A stretch of 64,000 bases of DNA from positions 250,001 to 314,000 of IMG/VR virus record IMGVR_UViG_3300031669_000001. The stretch is one strand, 5' to 3'. The stretch comes from a virus. Below are positions 3,264 through 56,942 of the stretch, in pieces (positions within the stretch are counted from its first letter, which is position 1; every line of letters begins with the position of its first letter). The notes beneath the pieces are model-generated. The model was not told the origin of the DNA. It was given only the letters and a program-made list of their open reading frames with translations, and searched no databases. Both the position numbers and the translations under genes were made by a program.

Positions 3264-3634
3264 CTACGTTAGATGGACGCTCGAACATTTTGTTAGTGTC
3301 ATCAAATCTTCCAGCGTTGTAAGGGATCCGACTTGAATAGGGCTAAACTGGGAAACAGTCGAATTTATACCTAGTTGCCCATCAACATTCAATCCCCAAC
3401 TCCAAAGAGTTCCATCAGTTTTTAATGCTAATGAATTTGTATAAGCAGCAATTGCTGACCAAGTGATTCCTGATCCTACTTGAGTAGGACTGCTTATATG
3501 AGGCCAGCCAACAGGACCAAGATTTAATCCTAGGTCACCATCTAAGTTATACTCCAAGACCATAGACCACCTACAACAGGACCTAGGCTAGGTTTTACTG
3601 CACTTCCAATCCCTATAAAAAATGAACTAAACAT
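3264..3634 (-). pseudogene. RCC1-repeat protein gene with a frameshift
   Basis: Two reading frames together form an RCC1-like repeat protein. Frame A starts at the ATG at 3632-3634 ([20 protein letters not shown], ending GGLWSW) and stops a few codons later. Frame B continues with YNLDGDLGLN and then LKTDGTLWSWGLNVDGQLGI, a canonical RCC1 blade. Only two bases lie between the TGG of LWSW and the TAT of YNL where three are expected, so one base appears lost near 3555. The start overlaps the stop of the upstream collagen-like gene as TAATG. RCC1-like propellers occur in phage fibres. A sequencing error is the alternative to a true pseudogene. Confidence 0.65.
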
Positions 3635-6360
3635 TATGCCACTCCATGTTTGCTTAATCCAAACCATACATGTGTAGAATCTACAACATAGAATGTAAGT
3701 AAGTTAACTGCACTGGCAGTGGTAGACACCGTAGGTATTGTTCCATCATTAGAAATCCAATTGGTGTCAAAGGTTAAGGTCGAAGGTGTTGCATTTTGTG
3801 TGATAGCAATTTGTCCACTTGTCCCAGCTACTGCATTTGTTGGGTTGCTCAATACCTGTGAAGTTGTAGCTTGCAGAGCCAATGAGAAGTTATTCGTTAA
3901 ACTTAAATTCACGGCAACCGCATTTGCTGCAACTGAAAGAGCTGTCACGGCAAACGATTGTGTAGCGGTGAAAGTTTCCACATTTGCGAGATATGCCACA
4001 CCAGCAGGTACTACACCTGTTGGACCTGTTGGGCCTTCAAGACCTGTAGGACCTGTAGGACCTTCTATACCAGCCGGACCTGTAGCTCCATCTGCACCAG
4101 TTGGACCAGTGAGTGAAGGACCGGTAGGACCGTCTAAACCTGTAGGACCGGTAGGACCGTCTAAACCTGTAGGACCGGTAGGACCGTCTAAACCTGTAGG
4201 ACCGGTAGGACCGTCTAAACCTGTAGGACCGGTAGGACCGTCTAAACCAGTAGGACCACCAGCTGGGCCTGTAGCTCCAGTAGGACCAGTTACGAATGAG
4301 TCGGCACCTGTAGGACCTGTAGCACCTTCAAGACCTGTAGGACCAGTTACGAATGAATCTGCACCCGTAGCACCAGTTGGACCAGTGAGTGAAGGACCGG
4401 TAGGACCGTCTAAACCTGTAGGACCGGTAGGACCGTCTAAACCTGTAGGACCACCAGCTGGGCCTGTAGCTCCAGTAGGACCAGTTACGAATGAGTCGGC
4501 ACCTGTAGGACCTGTAGCACCTTCAAGACCTGTAGGACCAGTTACGAATGAATCTGCACCCGTAGCACCAATAGGACCTGTAGGACCTGTAGCACCTTCA
4601 AGACCAGTAGGACCAGTTACGAATGAGTCGGCACCTGTAGGACCTGTAGCACCTTCAAGACCTGTAGGACCAGTTACGAATGAATCTGCACCCGTAGCAC
4701 CAATAGGACCTGTAGGACCTGTAGCACCTTCAAGACCTGTAGGACCAGTTACAAATGAGTCGGCACCAGTTGCACCAGTTGCACCTATAGCTCCAGTAGG
4801 ACCAGTTACGAATGAGTCTGCACCTGTAGGACCTGTTGGACCGTCTAAACCTGTAGGACCTGTAGCACCTTCAAGACCTGTTGGGCCTGTAGGACCACCA
4901 GCTGGACCTGTTGGGCCTTCAAGACCTGTAGGACCTGTAGGGCCACCAAACGCACCTGTAGGACCAACTTCGCCCGTAGGACCCGTAGCACCTTCTAGAC
5001 CAGTAGCTCCAGTAGCTCCAGTAGCGCCAGTGTTACCTAAATTACCTTGAGGACCTGTAGGGCCGGTTACGAATGAGTCTGCACCAGTAGGACCGGTAGG
5101 ACCGCCGAATGGACCTTGAGGACCTGTAGGACCTATCGCGCCAGTAGCGCTGTTAGCACGGATAGTTCCATAAGAAGATGCGCTCCAACCTGTAAAGACA
5201 GATTCTGTGTTCAGATAGATTGTAGTTGGAACAGCCAGAACATATCTCTTTGTTGTCAGAGGAACTTCATAGATTGTAGTGAACGTTGTATTAGTAAAGT
5301 CTTGTGCGTTAGTTTGAAAGTTAAATCCATTGCCTGTACCAATCACCGCGCTTGTAGAATTTGAAGCTCCAGAGAGCGTAGTTACAGATGCACCAGCTGA
5401 AATTGGAGATTCATTTGCAGTACCTGTACCTGTACCGGGACCTGTAGCAACGAAAGTTGTTCCAGATAAACTATCTGTTGCGCCTATCAAAGTAAAATCT
5501 GTATTGCCTGGACTTGCAATTGTGTAAGAATATCCAGTTACAAAAGAACCAGCTGTTACTATTGGAGCAACAAATTGGTAACCTACGAAACCTGAAATAT
5601 CCCACGAACCCGCTGATAGTGAGATGCTTGTAATGTTCGCAGTTAAACCTGATGTCAATGTAACAGGAACAGATATGACAGATTCTACGTAGATACCATC
5701 ACCTGTTGCGCCTGTAGGACCAGTAATTGACAATCCATCTGCACCAGTAGGACCTGTAGGTCCTTCGAGACCCGTAGGACCTGTTACAAAAGAGTCAGCA
5801 CCAGTAGGACCAGTAATAGCTAGACCATCAGGACCTGTAGGACCTGTTACAAAAGAGTCAGCACCAGTAGGACCAGTAGGACCACCAAATGCACCTGTAG
5901 GACCAACATCTCCTGTAGGACCTGTAATCGAAGGACCAGTAGGACCAGTAACTGAAGGACCTGTAGGACCACCAGGTCCTACAAAACCAGATTTGATAGA
6001 ACCATCAAGCTGCATAACTGAGAAGCCGTCTGTGTCAATGTAAGCTAGAGTTTCACTAGATTGAAGAGTTATCTTGCAAAGAACGTATGTGATAGCGTTA
6101 TCGTTGACTTGTAAAGTCACTACGATCGGTGCCGTATCCGCGTTGTAGATAGTGAGAGCTTTTAACTGTCTTTGAGTAGCTGCTGCAGGTGCAGTTACCA
6201 TTGGTTGAGCTATTGTAGAGCCGATGTTTCCATCAGAGCTCAGTGGAGTAAATGTTGTGCTTGTGATGTCAACGTAGCTAGCTGTCCAAGGTATGGAAGC
6301 TCCTGGAAGAGATCCTAAGAAGATCTCAAGAGATTTAGTAGTTGTATCAAAAATGATCAT
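3634..6360 (-). CDS. Collagen-like tail fibre protein (908 aa)
   Basis: Residues 1-115 form a unique non-repetitive head ([20 protein letters not shown] and onward), followed by collagen Gly-X-Y tracts built from GPTG, GATG and the recurrent module [11 protein letters not shown] globular insertion at about 225-400 interrupts the tracts, which resume to about residue 790. The last ~115 residues are a non-repetitive tip. This resembles trimeric fibres whose shaft folds as a collagen triple helix. The stop overlaps the RCC1-like start, and the gene follows another collagen-like gene by one base, so they are co-transcribed. Receptor binding by the tip is inferred. Confidence 0.85.
4118..4252 (-). 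repeat. Five near-perfect 27-bp direct repeats in the collagen shaft
   Basis: A 27-base unit encoding nine residues (GPTGLDGPT register) is repeated about five times with almost no change. Exact DNA repetition, unlike the codon-varied repeats elsewhere in the gene, suggests recent tandem duplication and possible length variation of the fibre shaft. Confidence 0.75.
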
Positions 6361-6361
6361 A

Positions 6362-7729
6362 TTAGACTCTCAGTGAAATAAGTGTTAGTACTTGTTGTTG
6401 ATTTGCAGATGACGGTCCTGTAGGTCCTGTTATTGATGGTCCTGCAGGACCTGTAGAACCTGCTGGACCAGTTGGTCCTTCTACATTCGAAGCTGCTCCA
6501 GTAGGTCCCGTTATCGATGGTCCTGTAGCGCCTGTAGGTCCAACTGAACCAACAGGACCGGCGCTTCCAGGTAATCCAGCAACACCTTGAGGACCTGTTG
6601 CGCCTTTTACACCGGCGGGTCCGATAGCGCCAGGCGCACCAACAGGTCCTGTAGGTCCCGCTACACCAGCTCCTGTAGGTCCTGTAATTGATATGCCAGC
6701 GGGACCTGTTGCACCAACCTGTCCAATGGCACCAGCGGGACCTGTAGGACCGTCAACGCTTCTACCGACAGAGTAAGATGCATTCGTTGTCAGTAATACA
6801 GTCTGAGCGCTTAAAATTATAGCAACTTGCTGAGATATTAAGTTAGACGCTAAAGGTGCAGTTTGTGTTAACTCGCCTATAGATCTTGGAGAAGTATCTG
6901 CGTATAAAACTTTACCTTGAGTTAAATCCCAATTCCAATTAGAATTGTAAACTACGCCACCTGTTATTATCTTTGCTGCCTGACCATACGTTAAATTTAC
7001 ATCTACGATACCGATGATAGGGTGTATTAAATCTGCGCCATCTGCTACGCTGATAGTACCTTCACTTTTAACTGAAACACAGTAGAAAGCTGGTATAGAT
7101 TCAGCGGCTATAGACTGAATTTCTAGATCAACAGGAACAGAGTAATTACCTTGATCAACAGCAACAGGTGACGCTGTCGTTAGGAAGTTTCCATTGATCG
7201 TTTTGATTCCCGATCCATCGCTGCCTCGTAGGATGTAACCAGCTGCAACATCATTAGTTGTATCTGGTCCAAGTCCAACTTGAGTTCCCAAAGGTTCAAA
7301 TGTAAAGCTCGATCCACCATTGAAGGAACCTGCAAAGACTCTACACTTTTCTACCCACTGACTTCCACTCCACACCTTCATAATGAATGTGTTTAGATCA
7401 TACCAATGTTGATCTACTGCCGGCGCTGTTGGAGTCACGCTCGATGTTATAGGATCATAAATCGTGTAACTTCTAGTGATGAGACCTGTCGCTAAGTCGA
7501 TATCCCAATAGAGATAGAATGGAGCAGAACCACTGAATGGACCCCAAGCATTTGCAACCGAAGAAACTTCATTGATCAGGTAATTTGCCTGACCGTACGT
7601 AACCGTTACGATGACAGGCGTCGTCGGCGTAGCTAAGATTTGAACGTACGTGCCATTATAGTCAAGGAAAGATGGACTTCCATTAACTATCGGTGCTGTA
7701 ACTATACCTTGCCTGAAATTTAATTTCAT
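6362..7729 (-). CDS. Fibre protein with globular head and collagen-like tail (455 aa)
   Basis: Residues 1-325 are a non-repetitive domain starting [20 protein letters not shown]. From about 326 ([12 protein letters not shown]) to about 440 runs a collagen-like Gly-X-Y stretch with GPTG and GPAG units, ending in a short tail [12 protein letters not shown]. The order, globular part first and collagen last, complements the following gene. It probably forms a fibre or baseplate-attached trimer. A late-promoter-like CATAAATA lies 26 bases upstream, and a ribosome site AGGATAAAC precedes the ATG. Confidence 0.8.
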
Positions 7730-9527: not shown

Positions 9528-10298
9528 TTATTTGCCAGCCAAATACAGCTCATAAGTGCGAGGGAACTGCTTCTGAATCAGTTCACCTACTGCATCTGCA
9601 TACTGACGAATTTCCCATTGAGCTGCAGGTGCCTGCCGCAACGTCAAGAATGCAAGCCAATTGCGAAGATTTGCGCTGGCTCTCATTCGAGAATAACGTG
9701 CAACAGGCACTGGAAGACGAGCGAGTTCCTTTGGAATTCCAGCTTCAATTCCCTGCTCATAGATCGATTGGCAATTTTCGTAGCAAATCTCAAGAGTTGA
9801 TCTCCAATCTTTTGCTTCCTGCTCAGTTAACGCCTTACCTGTTCCTTGAGCTTGCTTGTTGGTAGTTGTAGTGTTTGCACCTAACATCAATCGTTCGATC
9901 GAAGGGATGTAGTTCTCGTCTGGAAGAGGGATGTAGCGAGCTGACATCTCATTGTAGCTCTGCGTGCGATGACGGTGCCATTCACGGAACACGAAGATAG
10001 GAGCCTTGACTTCGATTACCATACCAGCCATTTCAAATGGAGTGGAGTGCTTGTTGTTGTAGAGGAAAGCAAGAAGCTTTTCATCTCCTGGAGTATCGTG
10101 ATCACACGTACAACGACGACTTATCGCCTCGAGGTGAGGAAGGTTGGAAGAGAGTCTACATGCCTTGGAATGATTTGGACCCCATCCAAGGAATCCTTTT
10201 CCAGTTGACATGCGTGCTGCCTCGATGATGCTTTCATCGCTTCCCCAATGATCGATAAAGCTAACGTAACCTTGGTCTAACACATCTAATTTCTTCAT
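9528..10298 (-). CDS. thyX: FAD-dependent thymidylate synthase ThyX
   Basis: A 256-residue flavin-dependent enzyme that methylates dUMP to dTMP using methylene-tetrahydrofolate and NADPH. The ThyX signature RHRTQSYNEMS (RHRx7S) is intact, and the C-terminal part (PVARYSRMRASANLRNW) fits the substrate-binding region. It is last in its operon, before the terminator at 9404-9446, and its start overlaps the upstream gene's stop by four bases. A thymidylate-synthase-like protein of the unrelated ThyA fold is also present near 42 kb; the two would be redundant only if that one also makes dTMP. Confidence 0.95.
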   Translation of the reverse strand: MKKLDVLDQGYVSFIDHWGSDESIIEAARMSTGKGFLGWGPNHSKACRLSSNLPHLEAISRRCTCDHDTPGDEKLLAFLYNNKHSTPFEMAGMVIEVKAPIFVFREWHRHRTQSYNEMSARYIPLPDENYIPSIERLMLGANTTTTNKQAQGTGKALTEQEAKDWRSTLEICYENCQSIYEQGIEAGIPKELARLPVPVARYSRMRASANLRNWLAFLTLRQAPAAQWEIRQYADAVGELIQKQFPRTYELYLAGK

Positions 10299-11612: not shown

Positions 11613-12077
11613 TCATTTTGCCCTATACCCTACTCTTAGATTTGCAGGAACGTGAGACATGATCCACTTGTCCATACCATTTCCCACCTTTTCACCAATT
11701 TGATCCATTTCAAACACAGCGAATCCATCCATCTCTGGAAAGTTAGGACCTTTCAGATTCTCTACCATTGAGATACACTTCATGATCCGAGTGTCGATCT
11801 TTTCAACCTCGATGTAATAGAGGTGAAGGTCTTTCTTATTATCGTAATCGTGCTGACCGAGATCGATTACCGAATCGATACCAAAGAAGATTTCCAAACC
11901 TGTCTCTTCAAATAGTTCACGCTTCGCAGCTGCGAAGTGATCTTCACCTTCATCAGCGGCACCTTTTGGAAGATCCCACCTATTTCCAGTGTTTGTTGGA
12001 TGACAGAGTAGCCAGCCGCTAGGAAAACCGTTCTTTGTTTCTGCTATGATGAATCCACAACTGCATTTATTTTTCAA
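11613..12077 (-). CDS. Nudix hydrolase
   Basis: A 154-residue protein with a complete Nudix box: GAADEGE, seven residues, then RELFEETGL (pattern GX5EX7REUXEEXGU), preceded by WDLPKG. Such enzymes hydrolyse nucleoside diphosphates linked to another group; the substrate cannot be told from sequence. Oxidised or non-canonical nucleotides, dinucleoside polyphosphates or ADP-ribose are possible, the last notable because a PARP gene is close by. The start is a TTG at 12075-12077, since no earlier ATG precedes the domain. A promoter lies at 12104-12132. Confidence 0.9.
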   Translation of the reverse strand: MKNKCSCGFIIAETKNGFPSGWLLCHPTNTGNRWDLPKGAADEGEDHFAAAKRELFEETGLEIFFGIDSVIDLGQHDYDNKKDLHLYYIEVEKIDTRIMKCISMVENLKGPNFPEMDGFAVFEMDQIGEKVGNGMDKWIMSHVPANLRVGYRAK

Positions 12078-12139: not shown

Positions 12140-12328
12140 TCATGAAGTCTGCCTATAGTCTTCTGGCGCCAACACTTCATTGAGACTACTCAAGACGAAA
12201 TCTTCAACCTCTACCAGATGCTGATCAACTTGCTTAAGAAGATCTTGCGCGGCCTCTTCAGAAACACAATGTCCACTTAAGCCAGACATCGAGATGATAT
12301 TTCGAATTGCTGCAATGTTGTCTCTCAT
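12140..12328 (-). CDS. Hypothetical protein (62 aa)
   Basis: A small acidic helical protein of unknown function. It overlaps the upstream 84-aa gene by four bases and is the last gene of the run that starts with the RNA ligase and PARP genes. Confidence 0.6.
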   Translation of the reverse strand: MRDNIAAIRNIISMSGLSGHCVSEEAAQDLLKQVDQHLVEVEDFVLSSLNEVLAPEDYRQTS

Positions 12329-12579
12329 CCGAAGATGTTCTCACAGATGTCACAAAGGTCGAAGAATGGATCTCGTCTGATTTCTTTTGAATCAGGCAGC
12401 GCCATCCAAAATGTATTCAACATCGAGACAAGTTTGTCATCGTCAAATTCACTCTGATCAATAGACGCGGTGCTCATGTTATACTTACCCAAGACCTTCA
12501 GGTATAGATCGATGTAATACTTTTCCGAGAAGATCTTATCTTGAAGGTTTATTGCAGCTCGTTGAATTTCTGTAGTCAT
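12325..12579 (-). CDS. Hypothetical protein (84 aa)
   Basis: A small acidic protein; the segment FDDDKLVSMLNTFWMALPDS recalls FDDDKLVSTITNFIADFP in the 229-aa protein at 25521-26210, so the two may share a short helical module. Its start overlaps the PARP stop codon by one base, implying co-translation. Confidence 0.65.
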   Translation of the reverse strand: MTTEIQRAAINLQDKIFSEKYYIDLYLKVLGKYNMSTASIDQSEFDDDKLVSMLNTFWMALPDSKEIRRDPFFDLCDICENIFG

Positions 12580-13922
12580 TATTTTTCCTCGAACTCGATG
12601 AGGTATCGAATGTTGACTTGACTGTTTCGATACACTATCATCTCATTGTTCATCACACCGCTCTTGCCAGCTTCTGCAAATGTAGAATCATAACCAGCTT
12701 TTGGCAGTGACTCATAAGAGCTCCGGGGTGTGTAATGTTTACCCATTGCGAAGTCGACTAAGAACATGAAGCAGTTCTTGTCTGTCGCACCGCGATCCCA
12801 ATAACCACGCGCGTAGTTCAACGCCTTGGTAGACTGATCTGAACCGTAGATACCATCGCCGAACATCCGGCCTGTTACCTGGAACGAACCACTCTTTGGT
12901 GGGCAGAAGAGACCGCTCTTCAGGATCGACAGCACGTTGAACACGCGAGTACCGTGCCAAAGCATTTGAATGTTTGGCAGCTTAGCACCATCTTTATCAA
13001 ATGCAGCTTTGCGCTCTGACATGTTCACTTCGTAGAAGCGAATCGGCTTCATGTTCTTTGACTCATGCCGATTGTTGATGCTGTCAAAGAACATTTTTTC
13101 AATCTTTGCAATCATGATCTTATCGCTGAGAATCTTCAAGTCTGCGTTGAAGATATTTGGAGTTGTAGCGAGAGTCGTTTGAACTGCAGAGGTCTTCGCA
13201 GCAGTAACGCGAGCTTCGGCGAGATCAGCAGATGCATCCAATTGATCGAGTAGGGTGCTTTGACTCTGCAGCGTGTTGTGACCTGAGAAGAATTCTTTGT
13301 GCCAGCCGCGCCGATGCCCGACTGTCTGAGGAACGAGCATCAAGTAAGTATTGAGGTTCTCGATGAATTGCTTGTCATCAAACTTTTGCTTCGCGACAAA
13401 CTTGTCCATCGCGTCGAGGGTTGCACGTGCCTGTTTCACGGTGTCCTTAGTGATCACGCCGATTGGAGTTGAAATGATACCTGTCGTCAAGTCGATGTCC
13501 ATCTGACCACCAGAAGCTTTGACCAACTCATGTCTGTTAGCTTCGACGAGACGTTCGATAAGCTTTGATAGCTCAGTGTCACCGCCGCCGAGTTGTTGCT
13601 TGGCAGCTTCACGAACAACGGCCTTAGACATAGCAGGCCCTGTAGGAGCGATGTCAGCTTTCTCAGCGAGGATGGCGATTTCACGGTATGGCGGCTTGTA
13701 GGTTGCAGAACCTTCTTTACCGCTTCCCTTCAGCTTTTCGCGAATTTTTGCATCGAGCTGCTTGCGCGTCATATGCTTTGGATCATCTTCATTGCGAGTC
13801 TTTCCAACTCGACCGTAGATAACGGTAACCATCTCAGTGTCAGTGTCGTACTTGTATTCCCAGAACTTGTTGTTGTTGTTAAGCGCGTCGGCGCACACGA
13901 ATTTCTTATGTTCGATTGTCAT
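12579..13922 (-). CDS. PARP-type poly/mono-ADP-ribosyltransferase with WGR domain
   Basis: A 447-residue protein with the domain order of a small eukaryotic-type PARP. Residues ~15-75 form a WGR domain (FWEYKYD, VIYGRVGKT). Residues ~85-260 resemble the helical PARP regulatory domain (LTTGIISTPIGVITKDTVKQ, then LVPQTVGHRRG). Residues ~270-447 are the catalytic domain: LWHGTR with His323, GDGIYGSDQSTKALNYA supplying the Tyr, and MNNEMIVYRNSQVNIRYLIE supplying the Glu of the H-Y-E triad. It would move ADP-ribose from NAD+ to proteins or nucleic acids, possibly when WGR binds DNA ends. NAD+ salvage genes lie about 21 kb away. T4 Alt and Mod enzymes belong to the different R-S-E class. Confidence 0.9.
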   Translation of the reverse strand: MTIEHKKFVCADALNNNNKFWEYKYDTDTEMVTVIYGRVGKTRNEDDPKHMTRKQLDAKIREKLKGSGKEGSATYKPPYREIAILAEKADIAPTGPAMSKAVVREAAKQQLGGGDTELSKLIERLVEANRHELVKASGGQMDIDLTTGIISTPIGVITKDTVKQARATLDAMDKFVAKQKFDDKQFIENLNTYLMLVPQTVGHRRGWHKEFFSGHNTLQSQSTLLDQLDASADLAEARVTAAKTSAVQTTLATTPNIFNADLKILSDKIMIAKIEKMFFDSINNRHESKNMKPIRFYEVNMSERKAAFDKDGAKLPNIQMLWHGTRVFNVLSILKSGLFCPPKSGSFQVTGRMFGDGIYGSDQSTKALNYARGYWDRGATDKNCFMFLVDFAMGKHYTPRSSYESLPKAGYDSTFAEAGKSGVMNNEMIVYRNSQVNIRYLIEFEEK

Positions 13923-14100
13923 GCTGCTTCCTTGAGTTTGATTGATAAGATAACGCTGCGATCATACGCGATAGCCACTTTATTTCTGGCCTCTTTTCAG
14001 AGTATGCAGCACGAATTAAAGTCCTGACACCCATCAATCGCTTGTTTATCGCATCAAATTCTCTGAACTTTATTTCAAAATTGTCTGGATTGTTATTCAT
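13906..14100 (-). CDS. Hypothetical protein (64 aa)
   Basis: A small basic protein of unknown function, started at the ATG at 14100 because AAGGGAAG precedes it (an upstream ATG at 14124 has none). It overlaps the PARP start by 17 bases, so the two are translationally linked. Confidence 0.6.
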   Translation of the reverse strand: MNNNPDNFEIKFREFDAINKRLMGVRTLIRAAYSEKRPEIKWLSRMIAALSYQSNSRKQHDNRT

Positions 14101-14446
14101 CGTCACTTCCCTTCTTAATCGCATCCTCGATTTTATCCCAGCTGGATCCGATTAACACCATGCTGAGAATGACGATCACTCCTAAGAACCAATGGTCGTA
14201 CCATACGAGAACTCCAGCGAGCACCAAGTCGGTGTAGTTGAACAGCTTTGACAACTTTGAACGTGAAGATTTAGCCTTGACTAACATCTCCTTGCCCGTG
14301 TCAGTGGTGATCGCGATGCTGCTGAAGAATAATATCCAGATAAAAAACACCATCAAGTTGTAAGCGCCTGCAACATTCTTGACAATTGCAAAGTAGACCA
14401 GCACCCACATGATAACGTTGTAGACTGTCTGTTTTAGTTCTCTCAT
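14093..14446 (-). CDS. Small membrane protein
   Basis: A 117-residue protein started at the ATG at 14446, behind AAAGGAAAAC. Three or four hydrophobic segments (including TVYNVIMWVLVYFAIV and VVFFIW-type stretches) separated by a basic loop indicate an inner-membrane protein with an acidic C-terminal tail. No family is recognised. It sits between the RNA ligase and PARP genes. Confidence 0.65.
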   Translation of the reverse strand: MRELKQTVYNVIMWVLVYFAIVKNVAGAYNLMVFFIWILFFSSIAITTDTGKEMLVKAKSSRSKLSKLFNYTDLVLAGVLVWYDHWFLGVIVILSMVLIGSSWDKIEDAIKKGSDDE

Positions 14447-14474
14447 TTGTTTTCCTTTGGAAATTGTAAACGCG

Positions 14475-15701
14475 TCATTCATCAAGCTCCGCGGTGGTCT
14501 GCAAAAGGTTCAATTGACGTAAGCCAAATTGTTCACGTAGGTAGTTGCGTTCGTAGAAGCCATTGTAGTCTGGCTCCTTGCCGTCCTTCTTGTTCATGAT
14601 CAGCTTGAAGAAAGGATGGTTGTAGCCTTGCGAACCGTAAAGCAACGCAAGCTCTTTCTTTGTCTTGTTACAAACAAGTTCAAAGATGTCATTGACTGTC
14701 CAGATGATCGCATCTATCTCAGCAACCACTCGAGTTTCGATGGCGTTGATCTCGGTGATATCGCAACCTTCACCAACCAGTACCGACTTTAAGTCATCCA
14801 GAGTTTCATTCAACACCATCTCAGCGATGTCACGTTCGCGCAGGAAGGTCATTGCTTTGTGACGCTCCATGTACCAAGCAGTTTTTACCTTCAACATTTC
14901 ACCGCTTTCAAACTGAACTACTACGCCTTCAACATCTGTAGTTTCTTCAATGTAGCGCTTAACGCCCTCGGGATTGTCAAACATCTTCTTGAGGTGATCG
15001 AGTTCAGTTACAACAGGGATATAAAACGATTTTGCAGTTACTTCCAACTCTGCGGTCTTAAAGTATTCACCTGTAACGTTGTGACGAATGTGCAACAAGG
15101 TCAATGAATCGTGCTTGTAACCTATGACTATCCGTGCAACTGGGGAAGTCCACTCGAAGATAGCAGTGAGATCATTCTCAACGCACCAATTGCAAAAATC
15201 GCCGTAGCGTGGATAGGCAAAGGAGGAAGAGAGGAGAAAGGAAGGAGAAGGAGTTGCAGTTTCAGCTAACATCAAGAAGCCCTTAGCTTGGTGTGCAACG
15301 TCAGACACGTAGCTCTTCTTTGACTTTAAATCAAAGTTGAGGTTACTTGGCCATAATTTGTCTGTATTCTTTACAGCGACTGTGTGGATCATTGAACCGT
15401 CGCGCTTGTCCATCACGCGAACAACCTTGGACCAGTCGATATTCTCAAAGAGCACATCTTGATTCTGATTCAGGTTGCTAAATTTGTGAAGTGGGCGGGC
15501 AATTACTTTGCCGTCTTTGAATACGATGCCGCGAGCTTCACGAGAGTACATCTCGTCGAAGGTACCATCGCAAGAGACGATGTAGGAACAAACGACAGTT
15601 CCATTATCTTGGTCCATGAAGCGAATTTCAGGCTTGTGAGCGACAGCCTGACGCATTGCCAAGTCATCAGTAAGAACTGGAAATACCAAATCGTTGCTCA
15701 T
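14475..15701 (-). CDS. T4 Rnl1-like RNA ligase
   Basis: A 408-residue ATP-dependent RNA ligase. Motif I is DKRDGS with the adenylated Lys99; upstream is EARGIVFKDGKVIARPLHKF, typical of Rnl1; motif IV is VEGVVVQF and motif V LKVKTAWYM. In T4 this enzyme seals tRNA cut by host anticodon nuclease, together with polynucleotide kinase; a PNK-like kinase is encoded at 27241-27783. The transcript begins just upstream, and the start codon lies in an 8-bp leader hairpin (15697-15725). Confidence 0.92.
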   Translation of the reverse strand: MSNDLVFPVLTDDLAMRQAVAHKPEIRFMDQDNGTVVCSYIVSCDGTFDEMYSREARGIVFKDGKVIARPLHKFSNLNQNQDVLFENIDWSKVVRVMDKRDGSMIHTVAVKNTDKLWPSNLNFDLKSKKSYVSDVAHQAKGFLMLAETATPSPSFLLSSSFAYPRYGDFCNWCVENDLTAIFEWTSPVARIVIGYKHDSLTLLHIRHNVTGEYFKTAELEVTAKSFYIPVVTELDHLKKMFDNPEGVKRYIEETTDVEGVVVQFESGEMLKVKTAWYMERHKAMTFLRERDIAEMVLNETLDDLKSVLVGEGCDITEINAIETRVVAEIDAIIWTVNDIFELVCNKTKKELALLYGSQGYNHPFFKLIMNKKDGKEPDYNGFYERNYLREQFGLRQLNLLQTTAELDE

Positions 15702-33809: not shown

Positions 33810-34613
33810 TTAGTTTTTTATAGGTCCATAGCAAAATGAATGTTGTGGAGAACATTTCTCTGGCGCGTCATACGGTTTGAACGTAGGGTCAGGTATTGGG
33901 TAGTTTGTTTCAGTCTGGTGAACCGCGTTACCGTCAAACATCTGTCCACACGTCTCAGAAACTTTTTCAGCTGAACCTACAGCGCCACTACATTGATCAT
34001 TCAACGCTTTTATCTTTGCTTCAAAATCTTTGATGCGCTGTACTAGAGCGTAATACTTTTTGAAATATTCTTTGCCCCTCGCATTTTCCGCGTAGCCTTT
34101 AACATCAAACTCTTTTACTGCTTGATTGAGAGTGGCTGCATCTTGATTGATAGTATCTCGTTCAGCGTTGACTTTGCTGGCTTCATCATCAACCTTTACC
34201 TTCCACTCATTGACTTTGTCAATCATTGGCTGTATTCTGGATCTTTCGCTGCTGCACCAGTTGTACGTGTTTTGATCAACTGTCCCGCTGCACGTTCCGT
34301 TGTAAGAGTCGGCCTGTTGATTCACGTCTTTCGCGTAAGCACGTTGCTGCTTGATTTCAGCAGCAACCTGATCGGTCCATGCATTGTGCGTAGCAAGATC
34401 TTTTTCATGGGTTGTGACTGCGCGCATGAGCAAATCTGCTGTGTCAAGTTGATGAGCTTGTTCGCTTTGAAGTTTTGTTCCTTCTTTATTCAAGATGTTG
34501 ATGTCTCGAATCGCGTCATGAATTGACGCGACGTATAGGCTTGCATTGGGAGCTGCGATCGCACATGTAATCGATCCCAGCAACAGAACTACGGCTGCTA
34601 TAATGTATTTCAT
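33810..34613 (-). CDS. Exported coiled-coil protein (267 aa)
   Basis: A signal peptide (MKYIIAAVVLLLGSITCAIA) precedes a long helical, coiled-coil region, with cysteine pairs (SYNGTCSGT, YNWCSSERS, NDQCSGAVG) that likely form disulfides in the periplasm. The C-terminus (PEKCSPQHSFCYGPIKN) has another Cys pair. No family recognised; it could act on the host envelope. Confidence 0.75.
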   Translation of the reverse strand: MKYIIAAVVLLLGSITCAIAAPNASLYVASIHDAIRDINILNKEGTKLQSEQAHQLDTADLLMRAVTTHEKDLATHNAWTDQVAAEIKQQRAYAKDVNQQADSYNGTCSGTVDQNTYNWCSSERSRIQPMIDKVNEWKVKVDDEASKVNAERDTINQDAATLNQAVKEFDVKGYAENARGKEYFKKYYALVQRIKDFEAKIKALNDQCSGAVGSAEKVSETCGQMFDGNAVHQTETNYPIPDPTFKPYDAPEKCSPQHSFCYGPIKN

Positions 34614-34693: not shown

Positions 34694-36178
34694 TTACGCG
34701 TAGGTGGTATCTGCCCGTGCCCAAGACTGTACTTCATCGAAGTCTTGGAAGCGTTTTTGCGCACCATCTTTTGACCACAATCTCCAGCCAGGACCATCAA
34801 CGAAGAAGGAAGCTGGGTTGGCAGTGCAATCACGAACCTCCAACTCACCGCTTTCCAGTTCGAAAGGACGAACCAAACCACGCAGAGACTTCTTGCCCAG
34901 GTCGGTGATTGGTTCTTTAACCAAAGACCTCCAACCGTTTGCATCCATCATCGCGATTGCCTTCATGCTGAAGCTGAAGTCATCGCGAGCACCTTCGTGG
35001 GTAACACCAGCACCCATACCCAAGGTCAGGCTGTCCATGCTGTAACCTTTGCTAGTGAATCCTTCCAGCACTGGCTCGATGGTGTTGATGCGGATTCCAT
35101 CACCTTGGATGACGGCGGTGCAAGGTGCCAAGACCTTGTAACCGGCTGCATTCTTGTGGACACCGAAGGTATCTTCGATGTCCTTTGCGACCCGCGCCGG
35201 CTCAACAGTTGCATCGCCAGAGTCAGGACGCATGACCATCACACCACCACTGTTCTCGATCTCTTCGCGGAAGGTTTCACCCATGTACTCACGAACGAAG
35301 CGGCGAGCATTGTAGGTGTCGATAACGACGCTCAACAGTGGGATGCCTATGCCGCGCTTAGTACGAGCAACAACGGCGTGCAGGCGTTTCACTGCCATCT
35401 TCGCGGCGCCGAAGTCATCACGCTTGTCAGCGTCGCTGTGCGCGCACATTACGCTGTGCTCAGTAGCTTCAACGCTTGAGGTGTATGGCTTGTTGGAGAA
35501 AACGGTGTTCTTGTTGAACAGAGCTTTGATGTAACTGTTTGCGCGAGTGCAATCGCTACCATCGAACATCGCTGCGTGAGCGATACCCGCGATGACAGCA
35601 GCTTCATCTGGACTGTCTGCACCACGATCGCCGAAGTTGTGCAGCTTGTAATTCAGCATTCCCATGTTGGCGCCGGTCTTCTGCATGTACTTGGCGATGA
35701 TGATGCGAGCTGCGCGGCAGGTACTTGCTACGGTAGACATCTTCCAGACGGTGCATTGAACGACAGTCTCGACATAAGTAGGCAACCAGGCAAAGAGATC
35801 GTGAGTATTGACGATACCCAGCACTGGAGTTTGAGGCTTGACGATACGACCTTCTTCAACTGCCCATACTTCCAGCGGCAGCTTGCCGTCCAAATAGTCG
35901 ACCATGTACTGCCAGTCGGCGCGGTTGAATTCGTATCCTTGTTGGGTGATTTCGATATCAGCTTCATCGACCATCCACTGTTCGATGCGCACTGAAGCCA
36001 AAAAGTTTGCTACGTAGGTTTGACCCATCGCGACGATCTTATCTGCGTACTTGCTGGGTTTACGTGGAACGATAGCTGCGTAAGAACGCAGAGTTCCGTC
36101 GGGCAATTCTTGCCAGTGACCAGCTTTGTAGCTGTCGCAGGCCAGAATAAAGTTGAAGCGCTTTATCATTTGTAACAT
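34694..36178 (-). CDS. nampt: Nicotinamide phosphoribosyltransferase (NAMPT)
   Basis: A 494-residue enzyme that joins nicotinamide and PRPP to make NMN. The start LACDSYKAGHWQELPDG, the middle RPDSGDATVEPARVAKD and CTAVIQGDGIRINT are family signatures (substrate-binding Arg/Asp and the phosphate loop). Full length matches cellular NAMPT. The ATG at 36178 follows AAGGAGATTGAC. With the NMNAT-Nudix enzyme 2 kb upstream it forms the two-step NAD+ salvage route known from phages such as KVP40 and reported to counter NAD-depleting defences. Confidence 0.95.
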   Translation of the reverse strand: MLQMIKRFNFILACDSYKAGHWQELPDGTLRSYAAIVPRKPSKYADKIVAMGQTYVANFLASVRIEQWMVDEADIEITQQGYEFNRADWQYMVDYLDGKLPLEVWAVEEGRIVKPQTPVLGIVNTHDLFAWLPTYVETVVQCTVWKMSTVASTCRAARIIIAKYMQKTGANMGMLNYKLHNFGDRGADSPDEAAVIAGIAHAAMFDGSDCTRANSYIKALFNKNTVFSNKPYTSSVEATEHSVMCAHSDADKRDDFGAAKMAVKRLHAVVARTKRGIGIPLLSVVIDTYNARRFVREYMGETFREEIENSGGVMVMRPDSGDATVEPARVAKDIEDTFGVHKNAAGYKVLAPCTAVIQGDGIRINTIEPVLEGFTSKGYSMDSLTLGMGAGVTHEGARDDFSFSMKAIAMMDANGWRSLVKEPITDLGKKSLRGLVRPFELESGELEVRDCTANPASFFVDGPGWRLWSKDGAQKRFQDFDEVQSWARADTTYA

Positions 36179-38255: not shown

Positions 38256-39413
38256 TCATAATTTCCCCAGCATGTACTCGATGATGAAGTAGTGATCTTC
38301 GAAGAACATCTCAGGGCTCTTCATCACTTCATCCAATGGAACCCACCAGGCCTTCTCAGCATCATCGTCACCCTTAACCTTCGGCAGCGATATCTTGCCG
38401 TCTACTACGAAGTCAGGCAGCTTAAACAAAAATCCCTTGGTGACAGTGCGACCGCGTAAGGAACGTTCAGGATAATCGAAGTCTTCTTTGAAGATCATCG
38501 AGCTGCGCAGAATCGGTTCAGGAACCTTGATGCGAGTCTCTTCACGCAGTTCACGGATTGCAGCTTCAAACAATCGTTCTTTGGGGTTCAAGAAGCCTCC
38601 AGGCAGCGCCCACAAACCTTTTCCAGGACGGCTACGACGTTTAACCAGCAGCACGTGACCAGTTTGGATGACGATTGAATCAACCGTCTGGAAGATTGGT
38701 TCGTAGCGAAGACCGGGATCATTTTGACCATAAGTTCCAGGATCACGTGGTATGTTCGGTTTACGATACTCGATGTTGAAGAGATGCTCTTCACGCAGGT
38801 TGTCGTAGAATGGAGTCTCTTCGAAAGCGCGAAGCTCATTAATCGTTTCAGCTGGCAAGAATGCGTTCAATAACAATTCTGCGTGGTTAGCGGTGATCTC
38901 GTTGCCATCGAATGAACGGCCAAAGTAGATTTCACGGACTGCGGTGGCGGTCAAGAAGCGACTGACTTCCATATTTTCATCGACCATGTCAGCGATGAAG
39001 TTAGGAAAGTACTTCAAGTAGAACGTTGAGGAATCACGATCAGCACCAGTGATTCTGATCTCAATGTCTTTGGGATTGAGTTTGACTTGCTCAGCGCTAT
39101 CAACGAACTCGTTGATCACCTTGTTAACGTTTGCTATCCAAAGTTGATCATTGTAGGGGAAGTCTCGAATGCCACGCACTGATACCGGTGCATTTTTAGC
39201 GTGTGGAGTCCAAGGACGAGATGCCCACTTATCAATGACGCTTGCACGTTCTTCAAACGTCCAGGGATTTTTGGGATTTCTTGCTTGATTGATGGAACCG
39301 ATGAGGACCAGCACAGCGTCCGAGCGCTCACGTGCTCGCTTCAGAACTTCTGCATGTCCATTGTGGAATGGGGAAAATCGACCGATGTACACGGTCAGTA
39401 CAAACTTAGCCAT
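38256..39413 (-). CDS. Bifunctional NMN adenylyltransferase / Nudix hydrolase
   Basis: A 385-residue fusion. Residues ~1-185 are an NMN adenylyltransferase: YIGRFSPFHNGHAEVLKRA with the HxGH motif, and FLTATAVREIYFGRSFDG at the C-terminal side. Residues ~225-385 are a Nudix domain with GGFLNPKERLFEAAIRELRE then ETRIKV. It converts NMN to NAD+, and the Nudix part may cleave ADP-ribose, as in KVP40 NatV. It is the second step after NAMPT. The leader has a GTGAACG/CGTTCAC hairpin, and an AAGAG/CTCTT stem enclosing the ribosome site. Confidence 0.93.
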   Translation of the reverse strand: MAKFVLTVYIGRFSPFHNGHAEVLKRARERSDAVLVLIGSINQARNPKNPWTFEERASVIDKWASRPWTPHAKNAPVSVRGIRDFPYNDQLWIANVNKVINEFVDSAEQVKLNPKDIEIRITGADRDSSTFYLKYFPNFIADMVDENMEVSRFLTATAVREIYFGRSFDGNEITANHAELLLNAFLPAETINELRAFEETPFYDNLREEHLFNIEYRKPNIPRDPGTYGQNDPGLRYEPIFQTVDSIVIQTGHVLLVKRRSRPGKGLWALPGGFLNPKERLFEAAIRELREETRIKVPEPILRSSMIFKEDFDYPERSLRGRTVTKGFLFKLPDFVVDGKISLPKVKGDDDAEKAWWVPLDEVMKSPEMFFEDHYFIIEYMLGKL

Positions 39414-41683: not shown

Positions 41684-41820
41684 TTATGTCGGCGCGAGCA
41701 GGATGCCGGTATTCACTTCGCTAATCTCGCGCTGCTCGGGCGTGGCATCTTTTTCCTCGACGATGCGCTGCACATCGCCCTGTGCGTCGCGCACGATGCG
41801 TCCGTAGCCGTGATGTGAGC
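41684..41820 (-). pseudogene. Embedded fragment of a bacterial glmU gene
   Basis: In the +1 frame relative to the TS-like gene, the minus strand encodes [20 protein letters not shown], then [18 protein letters not shown], ending at a TAA (41684-41686). This matches the pyrophosphorylase domain of GlmU (E. coli GYGRI..., HKDA..EQRQI.EINTGIL). The stretch is strikingly GC-rich against its neighbours. It replaces the 3' end of the TS-like gene and cannot be functional alone. It may mark recombination with host DNA or an assembly join. Confidence 0.8.
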
Positions 41821-42683
41821 CAACGCGTAAATTCAAACTCTTGAGGGATAGCTTCGAATTGACAAGCTCTCAAGAACTTAACTTCCGCTGGACCACTGAT
41901 AGGAGGACAAGAAATTTCCTCATAGGGATCTTTTTTGGTAGTTGGTAACGACAGAAAGTTTTCTCTATTTTCGATTGTCGATCCTGTGATCTTCTCAAGA
42001 AGCTCGAAGTGTCGTTCGTAAACGTGAAAAGAATCTGCAGAGTGATGATAGTTACCGTACTTCAACTCTGGATAAAATTCACGCAATGCATTGAGCACCA
42101 TCTCATGAGTAAAACTGAAAGCTGGAGCATCATTTGCCATTCCATAGACAGAATCCTGTGAACGCATCCTAACGCTCATGTTCAGAAAGTTTTCACGAAT
42201 CCTGAAGTTTAGCGCGTATGTACAAGGGACGTCATTAGTGTCGCTAAGAAGATGATCTCTGCTTAGAATCGATATAGAAGCTCTGCGAGAATCTTTGTCA
42301 TTCTTTAACTGATTGACGACGTTGTCAAATTGACTTACGGGAGTATCTCTGAAGATATATTGCCCGTAGTTTGAGTTTATGGATCCATCACGATTGATGA
42401 GATTGCCCCACATCTTTGCAAAGTCTGCTATGGAAGTATCAAACTTGTCACCTTTCAGGTACCAGAGAAATTCTCTCTTGACGTAGTCTAACTTGAAGCC
42501 GCGAGATGCAAAGCTTGTGAATCGGACGAAAGGTGGAAGGTTGTAGGTATAGTTTTCTATTTCAATGGACTTTTGACCTCGAGGAGATACTCTCTTTCCT
42601 CTTGCAATTAAGTCTTCATAGATGTTTCTAAATGTTGATTCGCTACTGACTACATTATCGTTGTGGTGTCCTGCATTTGACAT
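41721..42683 (-). CDS. Thymidylate-synthase-fold enzyme, dCMP-hydroxymethylase-like, 3' end altered
   Basis: A ThyA-fold protein: [12 protein letters not shown] with catalytic Cys154, [20 protein letters not shown] and [11 protein letters not shown] (His220, Tyr222). In ThyA the base-contacting residue after RSxDxxLG is Asn; here the aligned residue is Asp185, as in T4 dCMP hydroxymethylase, suggesting dCMP as substrate. From about residue 286 the ORF runs into the glmU fragment in a wrong frame (an Arg/His-rich tail), so the native C-terminus is lost or replaced, and activity is doubtful. It starts ATG at 42683. Confidence 0.8.
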
Positions 42684-45066: not shown

Positions 45067-49299
<4,233 letters not shown>

Positions 49300-56551: not shown

Positions 56552-56557
56552 TTCGTC

Positions 56558-56581
56558 AGCACGCTGGCGAACCAACGTGCT
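56558..56581 (-). terminator. Hairpin after the tmRNA
   Basis: Arms AGCACGTTGG and CCAGCGTGCT form a 10-bp stem (one G-U) with a TTCG tetraloop on the minus strand. There is no U-tract, so it may be a processing or weak termination signal between the tmRNA and the next gene. Confidence 0.5.
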
Positions 56582-56599
56582 AGTTGTTAGATTTCTTTA

Positions 56600-56935
56600 A
56601 TAAGGTAGAAAGCTTTCACCCTCTATTCTAAACCTCAGGCAACAATTAAGCTGCCAGAGCCAGAGCTCCGTTTGCGTCGTTTGCATTTACATGCTTGTCA
56701 GATTTACGGTCTGTACTCACCGAGTTGTAAAATTAAGGTACGTCCCTACTCAATCGAAACCAGGTACACCCCCATTAGGGGGCACTAGTTACTTTGATCC
56801 GACCTGGGTTCAGGTGTTAATGCGAATCAGGGAGCTCTAGTGCTCGGTGGAGGTGGGGAGAATCGAACTCCCGTCTTGCGCAGCTTTCGCTTTTTCCTTT
56901 CAGCAGTTTCCTGCCATACAACCATCTTTACTACT
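56600..56935 (-). ncRNA. ssrA: Circularly permuted (two-piece) tmRNA
   Basis: The minus strand holds all key parts of tmRNA in permuted order. First comes the 3' acceptor part, with T-arm GGGAG-TTCGATT-CTCCC (56856-56872) and acceptor CACCTCC then ACC (56846-56855). After a spacer comes the 5' part: GGGGGTG (56767-56773), GGTTTCGATT and the message. GGGGGTG pairs with CACCTCC, leaving a G3-U70 pair, the alanine identity element. The resume codon GCA at 56684 begins the tag ANDANGALALAA, ending at TAA (56646-56648). Processing would give two RNAs held by the acceptor stem. A genomic CCG replaces CCA, so CCA would be added. It rescues stalled ribosomes. Outer limits are approximate. Confidence 0.92.
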
Positions 56936-56942
56936 TGAATCC

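Follow-up and report, generated by a model that had tools for sequence, protein, structure and literature searches.

A complete PARP with WGR and regulatory domains in a giant phage: a candidate DNA-break-activated ADP-ribosyltransferase

The PARP Gene and Its Surroundings

The window analyzed here is a stretch of 64,000 nucleotides from a virus record of 345,069 bases (IMG/VR IMGVR_UViG_3300031669_000001, positions 250,001 to 314,000). On its minus strand, at 12579-13922 (genome position 262,579-263,922), lies an open reading frame (ORF) of 447 amino acids with an ATG start, which encodes a WGR domain, a PARP regulatory (helical, HD) domain, and a PARP catalytic domain. The base composition of this gene resembles that of its neighbors, and it sits inside a closely packed minus-strand run, an operon-like setting, in the following order:

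14475-15701, minus strand: T4 Rnl1-type RNA ligase, upstream of PARP (Pfam RNA_lig_T4_1, 1.7e-23)
14093-14485, minus strand: predicted membrane protein of 130 aa (judged by eye from hydrophobic stretches); overlaps the RNA ligase ORF
13906-14124, minus strand: 72-aa ORF (ORF list), with a 17-nt overlap with the PARP start
13929-13933, minus strand: ribosome-binding-site-like AAGGA, 6-10 nt 5' of the PARP start
12579-13922, minus strand: PARP
12325-12579, minus strand: 84-aa ORF (phrog_7464, unknown function, 3.2e-7); its ATG shares nucleotides with the PARP stop (TAATG)
12140-12328, minus strand: 62-aa ORF (ORF list), next in the run after the 84-aa ORF
11613-12077, minus strand: Nudix hydrolase (Pfam NUDIX, 7.6e-11), 502 nt past PARP

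The overlap between the PARP stop and the ATG of the 84-aa ORF suggests that the two genes may be translationally coupled. The 72-aa ORF has no match in a PHROGs search, and all NCBIfam equivalogs for the Nudix hydrolase fall below cut-off, leaving its substrate not assignable. Promoter and terminator scans gave at most a modest excess over shuffled sequences. Six related loci (L002, L003, L004, L006, L013, and L029) also have an RNA ligase homologue upstream of PARP, at a distance of 65-3347 nt, and a Nudix gene is also found downstream of PARP in L002, L003, L004, and L013; a ligase upstream with a Nudix gene or a 191-aa ORF downstream is common only to the close relatives of the window. The neighbors of PARP in the window are the RNA ligase, the Nudix hydrolase, and nucleotide genes, and DNA-end repair genes are not among them. 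A search for the Ku gene found it absent from all 15 PARP phage records searched.

Several other features of the window lie apart from this run. A fusion of CoaE (dephospho-CoA kinase) and CoaD (phosphopantetheine adenylyltransferase), the enzymes that complete CoA synthesis in its last two steps, is encoded by the phage at 30929-32020 (minus strand), and ARAGORN reports a tmRNA gene at 56555-56937 (minus strand), with an asterisk flag and the tag peptide ANDANGALALAA. Two thymidylate synthases are encoded, ThyX and a ThyA-like one (9528-10298 and 41721-42683, both minus strand), the ThyA-like protein falling under all NCBIfam cut-offs and looking divergent in its last part. Long proteins with collagen-like G-P-T repeats, probably tail fibers, are encoded at 3634-7729 (minus strand) and 45067-49299 (plus strand).

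Domain Architecture and Predicted Structure

The three domains of the window protein follow the order found in PARP1, PARP2, and PARP3 according to Pfam:

13677-13922, minus strand: WGR domain (residues 1-82, by alignment to PARP2; Pfam match over residues 12-64)
13194-13619, minus strand: PARP regulatory (helical) domain (residues 102-243; Pfam PARP_reg match over residues 133-229)
12588-13103, minus strand: PARP catalytic domain (residues 274-445; Pfam PARP)

The catalytic match (PF00644; 2.5e-23, 83.1 bits against a cut-off of 26.7) is well past chance level. The WGR match (PF05406; 1.5e-4, 22.2 bits) is barely above its cut-off of 22, and the PARP_reg match (PF02877; 8.7e-6, 26.3 bits) falls 0.5 bit below the curated cut-off of 26.8. 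Because two of the three Pfam matches are marginal for the single sequence, a profile was built from an alignment of 18 phage homologues; this profile gives matches to PARP1 (1e-42, spanning WGR to the end of the catalytic domain) and to PARP2 (2.2e-42).

An AlphaFold2 model of the window protein, computed from an input alignment of 13 sequences (window and IMG/VR), has a mean pLDDT of 77 and a pTM of 0.68. The PARP fold was returned, and the first 12 PDB matches in a Foldseek search are full WGR-HD-CAT PARP1 and PARP2 structures bound to DNA double-strand breaks, the best being PARP1 on a DNA break (best E 4.5e-23, TM about 0.6, about 20% identity). The regulatory domain, which is autoinhibitory in PARP1 and PARP2, is helical in the model (residues 102-112, 116-136, 159-177, 184-196, and 215-243) and aligns with the HD of PARP1. 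A first-pass annotation of this DNA, made from the letters, had described a complete H-Y-E PARP with WGR and regulatory domains in a phage; the Pfam search and structure prediction that it proposed as checks, together with the profile and the residues described below, bear this description out.

Catalytic and DNA-break-Signaling Residues

Residues were compared after aligning the window protein with 68 other phage and bacterial homologues (69 in total) and two human sequences. The catalytic residues are encoded as follows:

12954-12956, minus strand: codon of His323, which aligns with PARP1 H862
12846-12848, minus strand: codon of Tyr359, which aligns with PARP1 Y896
12642-12644, minus strand: codon of Glu427, which aligns with PARP1 E988

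All three are invariant in 69/69 phage and bacterial proteins, that of the window included, and Lys366 and Tyr370 are invariant across the aligned homologues too. With respect to ADP-ribose chains, Glu427 and Lys366 appear permissive only. Ala367 occupies the position of the nicotinamide-contacting Ser904 of PARP1, and the catalytic Tyr is followed by Gly360, where most homologues have Phe; the affinity for NAD+ may therefore be lower.

In the WGR domain, the window protein carries N16, N18, K19, Y36-G37-R38, K63, and Y79. The first of these correspond to DNA-end and allosteric residues of PARP2: N16 to N127, N18 to N129, K19 to K130, and Y36-G37-R38 to W151-G-R153. In human PARP2, Asn127, Asn129, Lys130, and Arg153 connect the DNA end with the helical domain (PMC8190142; also PMC4081085). 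The N129A mutant is inactive (PMC8190142; PMC4081085, numbered N116), and DNA-dependent activity is lost when Arg153 or Asn127 is mutated (PMC8190142). Among the phage and bacterial sequences whose aligned part includes the WGR domain, Lys19 is kept in every one, Asn18 and Arg38 have one exception each, and Asn16 is kept in the majority. The window protein keeps N16, N18, K19, and R38 of the DNA-end-sensing WGR residues of DNA-dependent PARPs, while W151 is replaced by Y36. A Trp-to-Ala substitution at this position abolishes DNA-dependent activity in human PARP1-3 (PMC4081085), and bacterial PARPs most often carry Tyr there (PMC5966428). As judged from the alignment, the whole signaling path from DNA break to catalysis appears to be retained in the window PARP.

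Relatives, Phylogeny, and Earlier Reports

Homologues were detected by tblastn in 15 of 50,697 phage records, and further at 47 viral-contig loci, 11 bacterial genome loci, and on 20 plasmids. The family is rare in sampled bacteria, with 1/397 in one phylum and 8/291 in another, when matches above the Pfam cut-off are counted and the genome centering each search is included. In a maximum-likelihood tree of 70 proteins, which is unrooted, the window PARP nests in a well-supported phage clade beside alphaproteobacterial and Variovorax sequences, and starred branches carry five or more switches between phage and bacterial labels. Human PARP1 and PARP2, the only two human sequences included, lie beyond a 100/97 branch, apart from the window protein. 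A recent capture from eukaryotes is not supported by this tree with its two human sequences; the branching speaks against such an event and says nothing on deep origin. The first-pass description of the protein as mimicking eukaryotic PARP1-type enzymes is apt insofar as it is homologous to PARP1/2/3, but the eukaryotic capture that the wording implied does not agree with its grouping among phage and bacterial PARPs.

Phage PARPs have been reported before. PARPs were listed for phages Aeh1 and phi4:1 in 2014 (PMC4245714), the PARP of XacN1 was named by Iyer and co-authors in 2021 (PMC7824862), the PART family was placed among the commonest viral ARTs by Iyer and co-authors in 2022 (PMC9503650), and GenBank entry QQV91759.1 from Klebsiella phage vB_KpM_FBKp34 is annotated with all three domains. 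The complete PARP of this giant phage is real and rare, but with these four precedents it is not unusual in kind, contrary to what had been implied at first. No biochemical assay of any phage PARP was found in the open-access literature.

The nearest phage-encoded comparisons are the full-length PARPs of Xanthomonas phage XacN1 (BBA65562.1) and Stenotrophomonas phages RAS14 and CM1, which are 38-39% identical to the window PARP and fall in another clade. In XacN1, a von Willebrand A-domain (vWA) gene begins 10 nt past PARP (L019, 13282-13932). The QQV91759.1 protein and its relatives are 31% identical and adjoin class III ribonucleotide reductase genes. Human PARP1, PARP2, and PARP3 share the fold, the domain order, the H-Y-E residues, and the residues that signal from WGR to HD; on the other hand, identity is about 20% in the structural match, the WGR Trp is a Tyr in the window protein, the zinc fingers, BRCT domain, and N-terminal tail of the human PARPs are lacking, and the long insert that precedes the catalytic Glu of PARP1 is missing.

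CdPARP from Clostridioides difficile CD160 and HaPARP from Herpetosiphon are proven DNA-dependent, auto-PARylating enzymes, which share the WGR-PARP_reg-PARP_cat layout of the window protein and in which Tyr is commonly found at the first WGR position (PMC5966428). The catalytic residues of CdPARP, taken from its published description and unaligned, have nearly equal numbering (H322/Y359/E428 against H323/Y359/E427). These two differ in being bacterial genes, and CdPARP has Ser367 where the window protein has Ala367. T4 Alt, ModA, and ModB, like the window PARP, are phage NAD+-dependent ADP-ribosyltransferases, but the contrast that had been drawn with these R-S-E enzymes holds, as the window active site is H-Y-E. 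To our knowledge, the T4 enzymes have neither a WGR nor a helical domain. They belong to the R-S-E clade, and modify host proteins by mono-ADP-ribosylation or RNAylation (PMC9503650).

NAD+ Salvage Genes

The gene pair of NARP2-like NAD+ salvage, NAMPT and an NMN adenylyltransferase, is present in the window, about 21-26 kb from PARP:

34694-36178, minus strand: NAMPT, nicotinamide phosphoribosyltransferase (Pfam NAPRTase 2.4e-21, NAMPT_N 6.1e-15)
38256-39413, minus strand: NadM-type bifunctional NMN adenylyltransferase/Nudix protein (Pfam; best NCBIfam NF003786 at 2.4e-98, below cut-off)

NAMPT occurs in 12 of the 15 PARP-bearing phage records, against a reported frequency of 33% in jumbo phages (PMC9503650). 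The control set consisted of 18 large phage records picked by RNA ligase, 17 of them PARP-negative, and NAMPT occurs in 8 of these 17; a topoisomerase gene used as control bait gave one relative only. Among records above 300 kb, NAMPT is found in 10/13 PARP-positive and 7/8 PARP-negative records (Fisher p = 1; small samples). Below 300 kb the counts are 3/3 and 1/9, the three being closely related Klebsiella phages. A coupling of PARP to NAD+ salvage was therefore rejected, since the apparent enrichment is gone in the size-matched comparison; NAMPT being equally common above 300 kb with or without PARP, salvage follows genome size and not visibly PARP. The earlier suggestion that other genes here remake the NAD+ consumed by PARP stands as far as the presence of NAMPT and NadM goes, but not as a link to PARP.

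PARP-adjacent Genes in Other Phages and on Plasmids

In many large phages, the gene directly downstream of PARP, on the same strand, encodes a protein with the motif F[ST]A[YFH][DN][VI]T..[LI]R, which is absent from the window. A profile of this gene matches 13 of 24 PARP-bearing records, with a single copy in all 13 but one; the profile was built from PARP-adjacent loci, and the independent finds are only those in G001 (far from PARP), G002, G006, and G011. A copy lies within 5 kb downstream of PARP in 10 of the 13, and at 11-14 kb in two. Copies include the following:

L044, 6358-7020
L033, 6260-7312
L050/G006, 33844-34113
L048, 6334-6894
L071, 6315-7220

The motif gene has no convincing match in Pfam or PHROGs, and the L044 copy has no relative in the phage collection. 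Its structural model is modest; over the first 70 residues it shows a weak similarity to winged-helix regulators (E about 0.04 for the best relevant match), from which a winged-helix DNA-binding protein is predicted. Some of the products have an AbrB-like C-terminal part.

A macro-domain-like gene lies about 1-2.6 kb from PARP at several phage loci (L063, 8069-8623; L064, 8583-9062; L071, 7291-7782; L021, 5058-5573; L023, 2899-3414), and these are possible ADP-ribose erasers. Of the two macro domains in the genome of the window, both away from PARP, one is fused to an apparent 2H phosphoesterase of RNA-repair type (judged by eye), and the other overlaps a longer ORF upstream, at the end of that ORF. 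At L016 1447-2463 (genome 201939-202328 region), a macro domain is joined to an N-terminal part that by eye is 2H-phosphoesterase-like, as in RNA-repair ADP-ribose processing. A PARG_cat profile gave no match in 6 records, nor in control genomes, and so carries no weight on whether a dedicated PAR eraser is present.

The plasmid homologues include loci L172, L173, and L174. All 20 WGR-PARP plasmid records are at least 302 kb long, and the 13 with a full-length PARP match span 0.72-1.17 Mb, in a set that contains several near-copies. The apparent confinement of WGR-PARP plasmids to very large replicons is a lead.

Possible Function of the Phage PARP

We propose, with a probability of roughly 60%, that the window PARP is a DNA-strand-break-activated ADP-ribosyltransferase of the PARP2/3 and CdPARP/HaPARP type, acting at breaks during infection. 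By analogy with these enzymes, the WGR domain would bind a DNA end or nick, and Asn18 and Arg38 would relay this contact to the helical domain, which would then cease to block the catalytic site. With NAD+ as donor, the H-Y-E site would ADP-ribosylate the enzyme itself as well as proteins and/or 5'-phosphates at the break, probably building chains, either short or long. The DNA ends in the infected cell would be those of cut host or phage DNA, and the likeliest role would be at phage DNA breaks and at intermediates of replication or recombination, or else in opposing host enzymes that process ends. That the enzyme depends on DNA and forms chains is what we infer from the characterized relatives; the biological target is a guess.

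Gene contexts elsewhere bear on this proposal. The homologue on the Variovorax SRS16 megaplasmid adjoins genes for SSB, Rad52/22, a helicase, and a 3'-5' exonuclease; that of a Vibrio megaplasmid has a 3'-5' exonuclease 79 bp downstream; and that of a Cellulophaga phage adjoins a DNA ligase. These neighbors, single contexts each, favor a role at DNA breaks, while the surroundings of PARP in the Klebsiella phages and in pMPPla107 have no equally clear repair context. DNA ends with a 5'-phosphate are known substrates of PARP2 and PARP3, and PARylation of a break site reportedly protects it from nucleases (PMC8053099). Counted against a break-activated enzyme are the Tyr in place of the WGR Trp, Ala367 and Gly360, the lack of DNA-end repair neighbors in the window, and the absence of Ku.

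An unlikely alternative is that the PARP ADP-ribosylates host RNA polymerase or nucleoid proteins and redirects transcription, as T4 Alt, ModA, and ModB do, with WGR serving only for recruitment to DNA. This is near the role proposed by Iyer et al. for phage PARPs (PMC7824862), and WGR can tether a protein to the DNA on which RNA polymerase works. Plain tethering, however, has no need of the conserved break-signaling residues, the T4 enzymes are from a different ART clade (R-S-E), and the PARP gene lies in a metabolic and nucleic-acid gene run, not visibly near head genes as packaged ARTs are. It is improbable that PARP is a weapon or counter-defense that, upon sensing foreign or cut DNA, burns NAD+ to stop a rival phage or modifies a defense protein while NAMPT and NadM restore NAD+. 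PARP over-activation depletes NAD+ in eukaryotes, and both salvage genes share the 64-kb window with PARP, but they lie at the distance given above, NAMPT is no commoner with PARP in records above 300 kb, and PADLOC gives no PARP match.

The gene neighborhood raises the further idea of a partnership with the Rnl1 RNA ligase and the Nudix hydrolase on RNA ends. The ligase upstream of PARP in the window, where spacing is tight, and in the six related loci, as well as the apparent macro-domain/2H-phosphoesterase fusion elsewhere in the genome, are in line with it; we nevertheless consider it very improbable, as the association is limited to the close clade of the window, only 1 of the 18 large ligase-bearing phage records has a PARP, and PARP3, of the same layout, reportedly does not modify RNA (PMC8053099). 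Still harder to credit is an inactive enzyme retained solely for DNA binding: Ala367 and Gly360 in place of the nicotinamide-site residues of PARP1 would agree with this, yet His, Tyr, Glu, K366, and Y370 are invariant in the aligned homologues.

Beyond the break-activated enzyme preferred here, one may speculate, though the idea is doubtful, that giant phages and megaplasmids use their WGR-PARPs as a prokaryotic system for marking DNA ends, in many phages with a dedicated, predicted DNA-binding gene downstream, in which a break-activated ADP-ribose cap or decoration would shield the ends of a large replicon from host nucleases or steer their repair. The existence of phage PARPs is already established, and the question is one of function. 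DNA-break-triggered ADP-ribosylation in bacterial viruses, if true, would link eukaryotic PARP biology to phage DNA protection, and might explain the recurrence of PARP genes on very large phages and megaplasmids.
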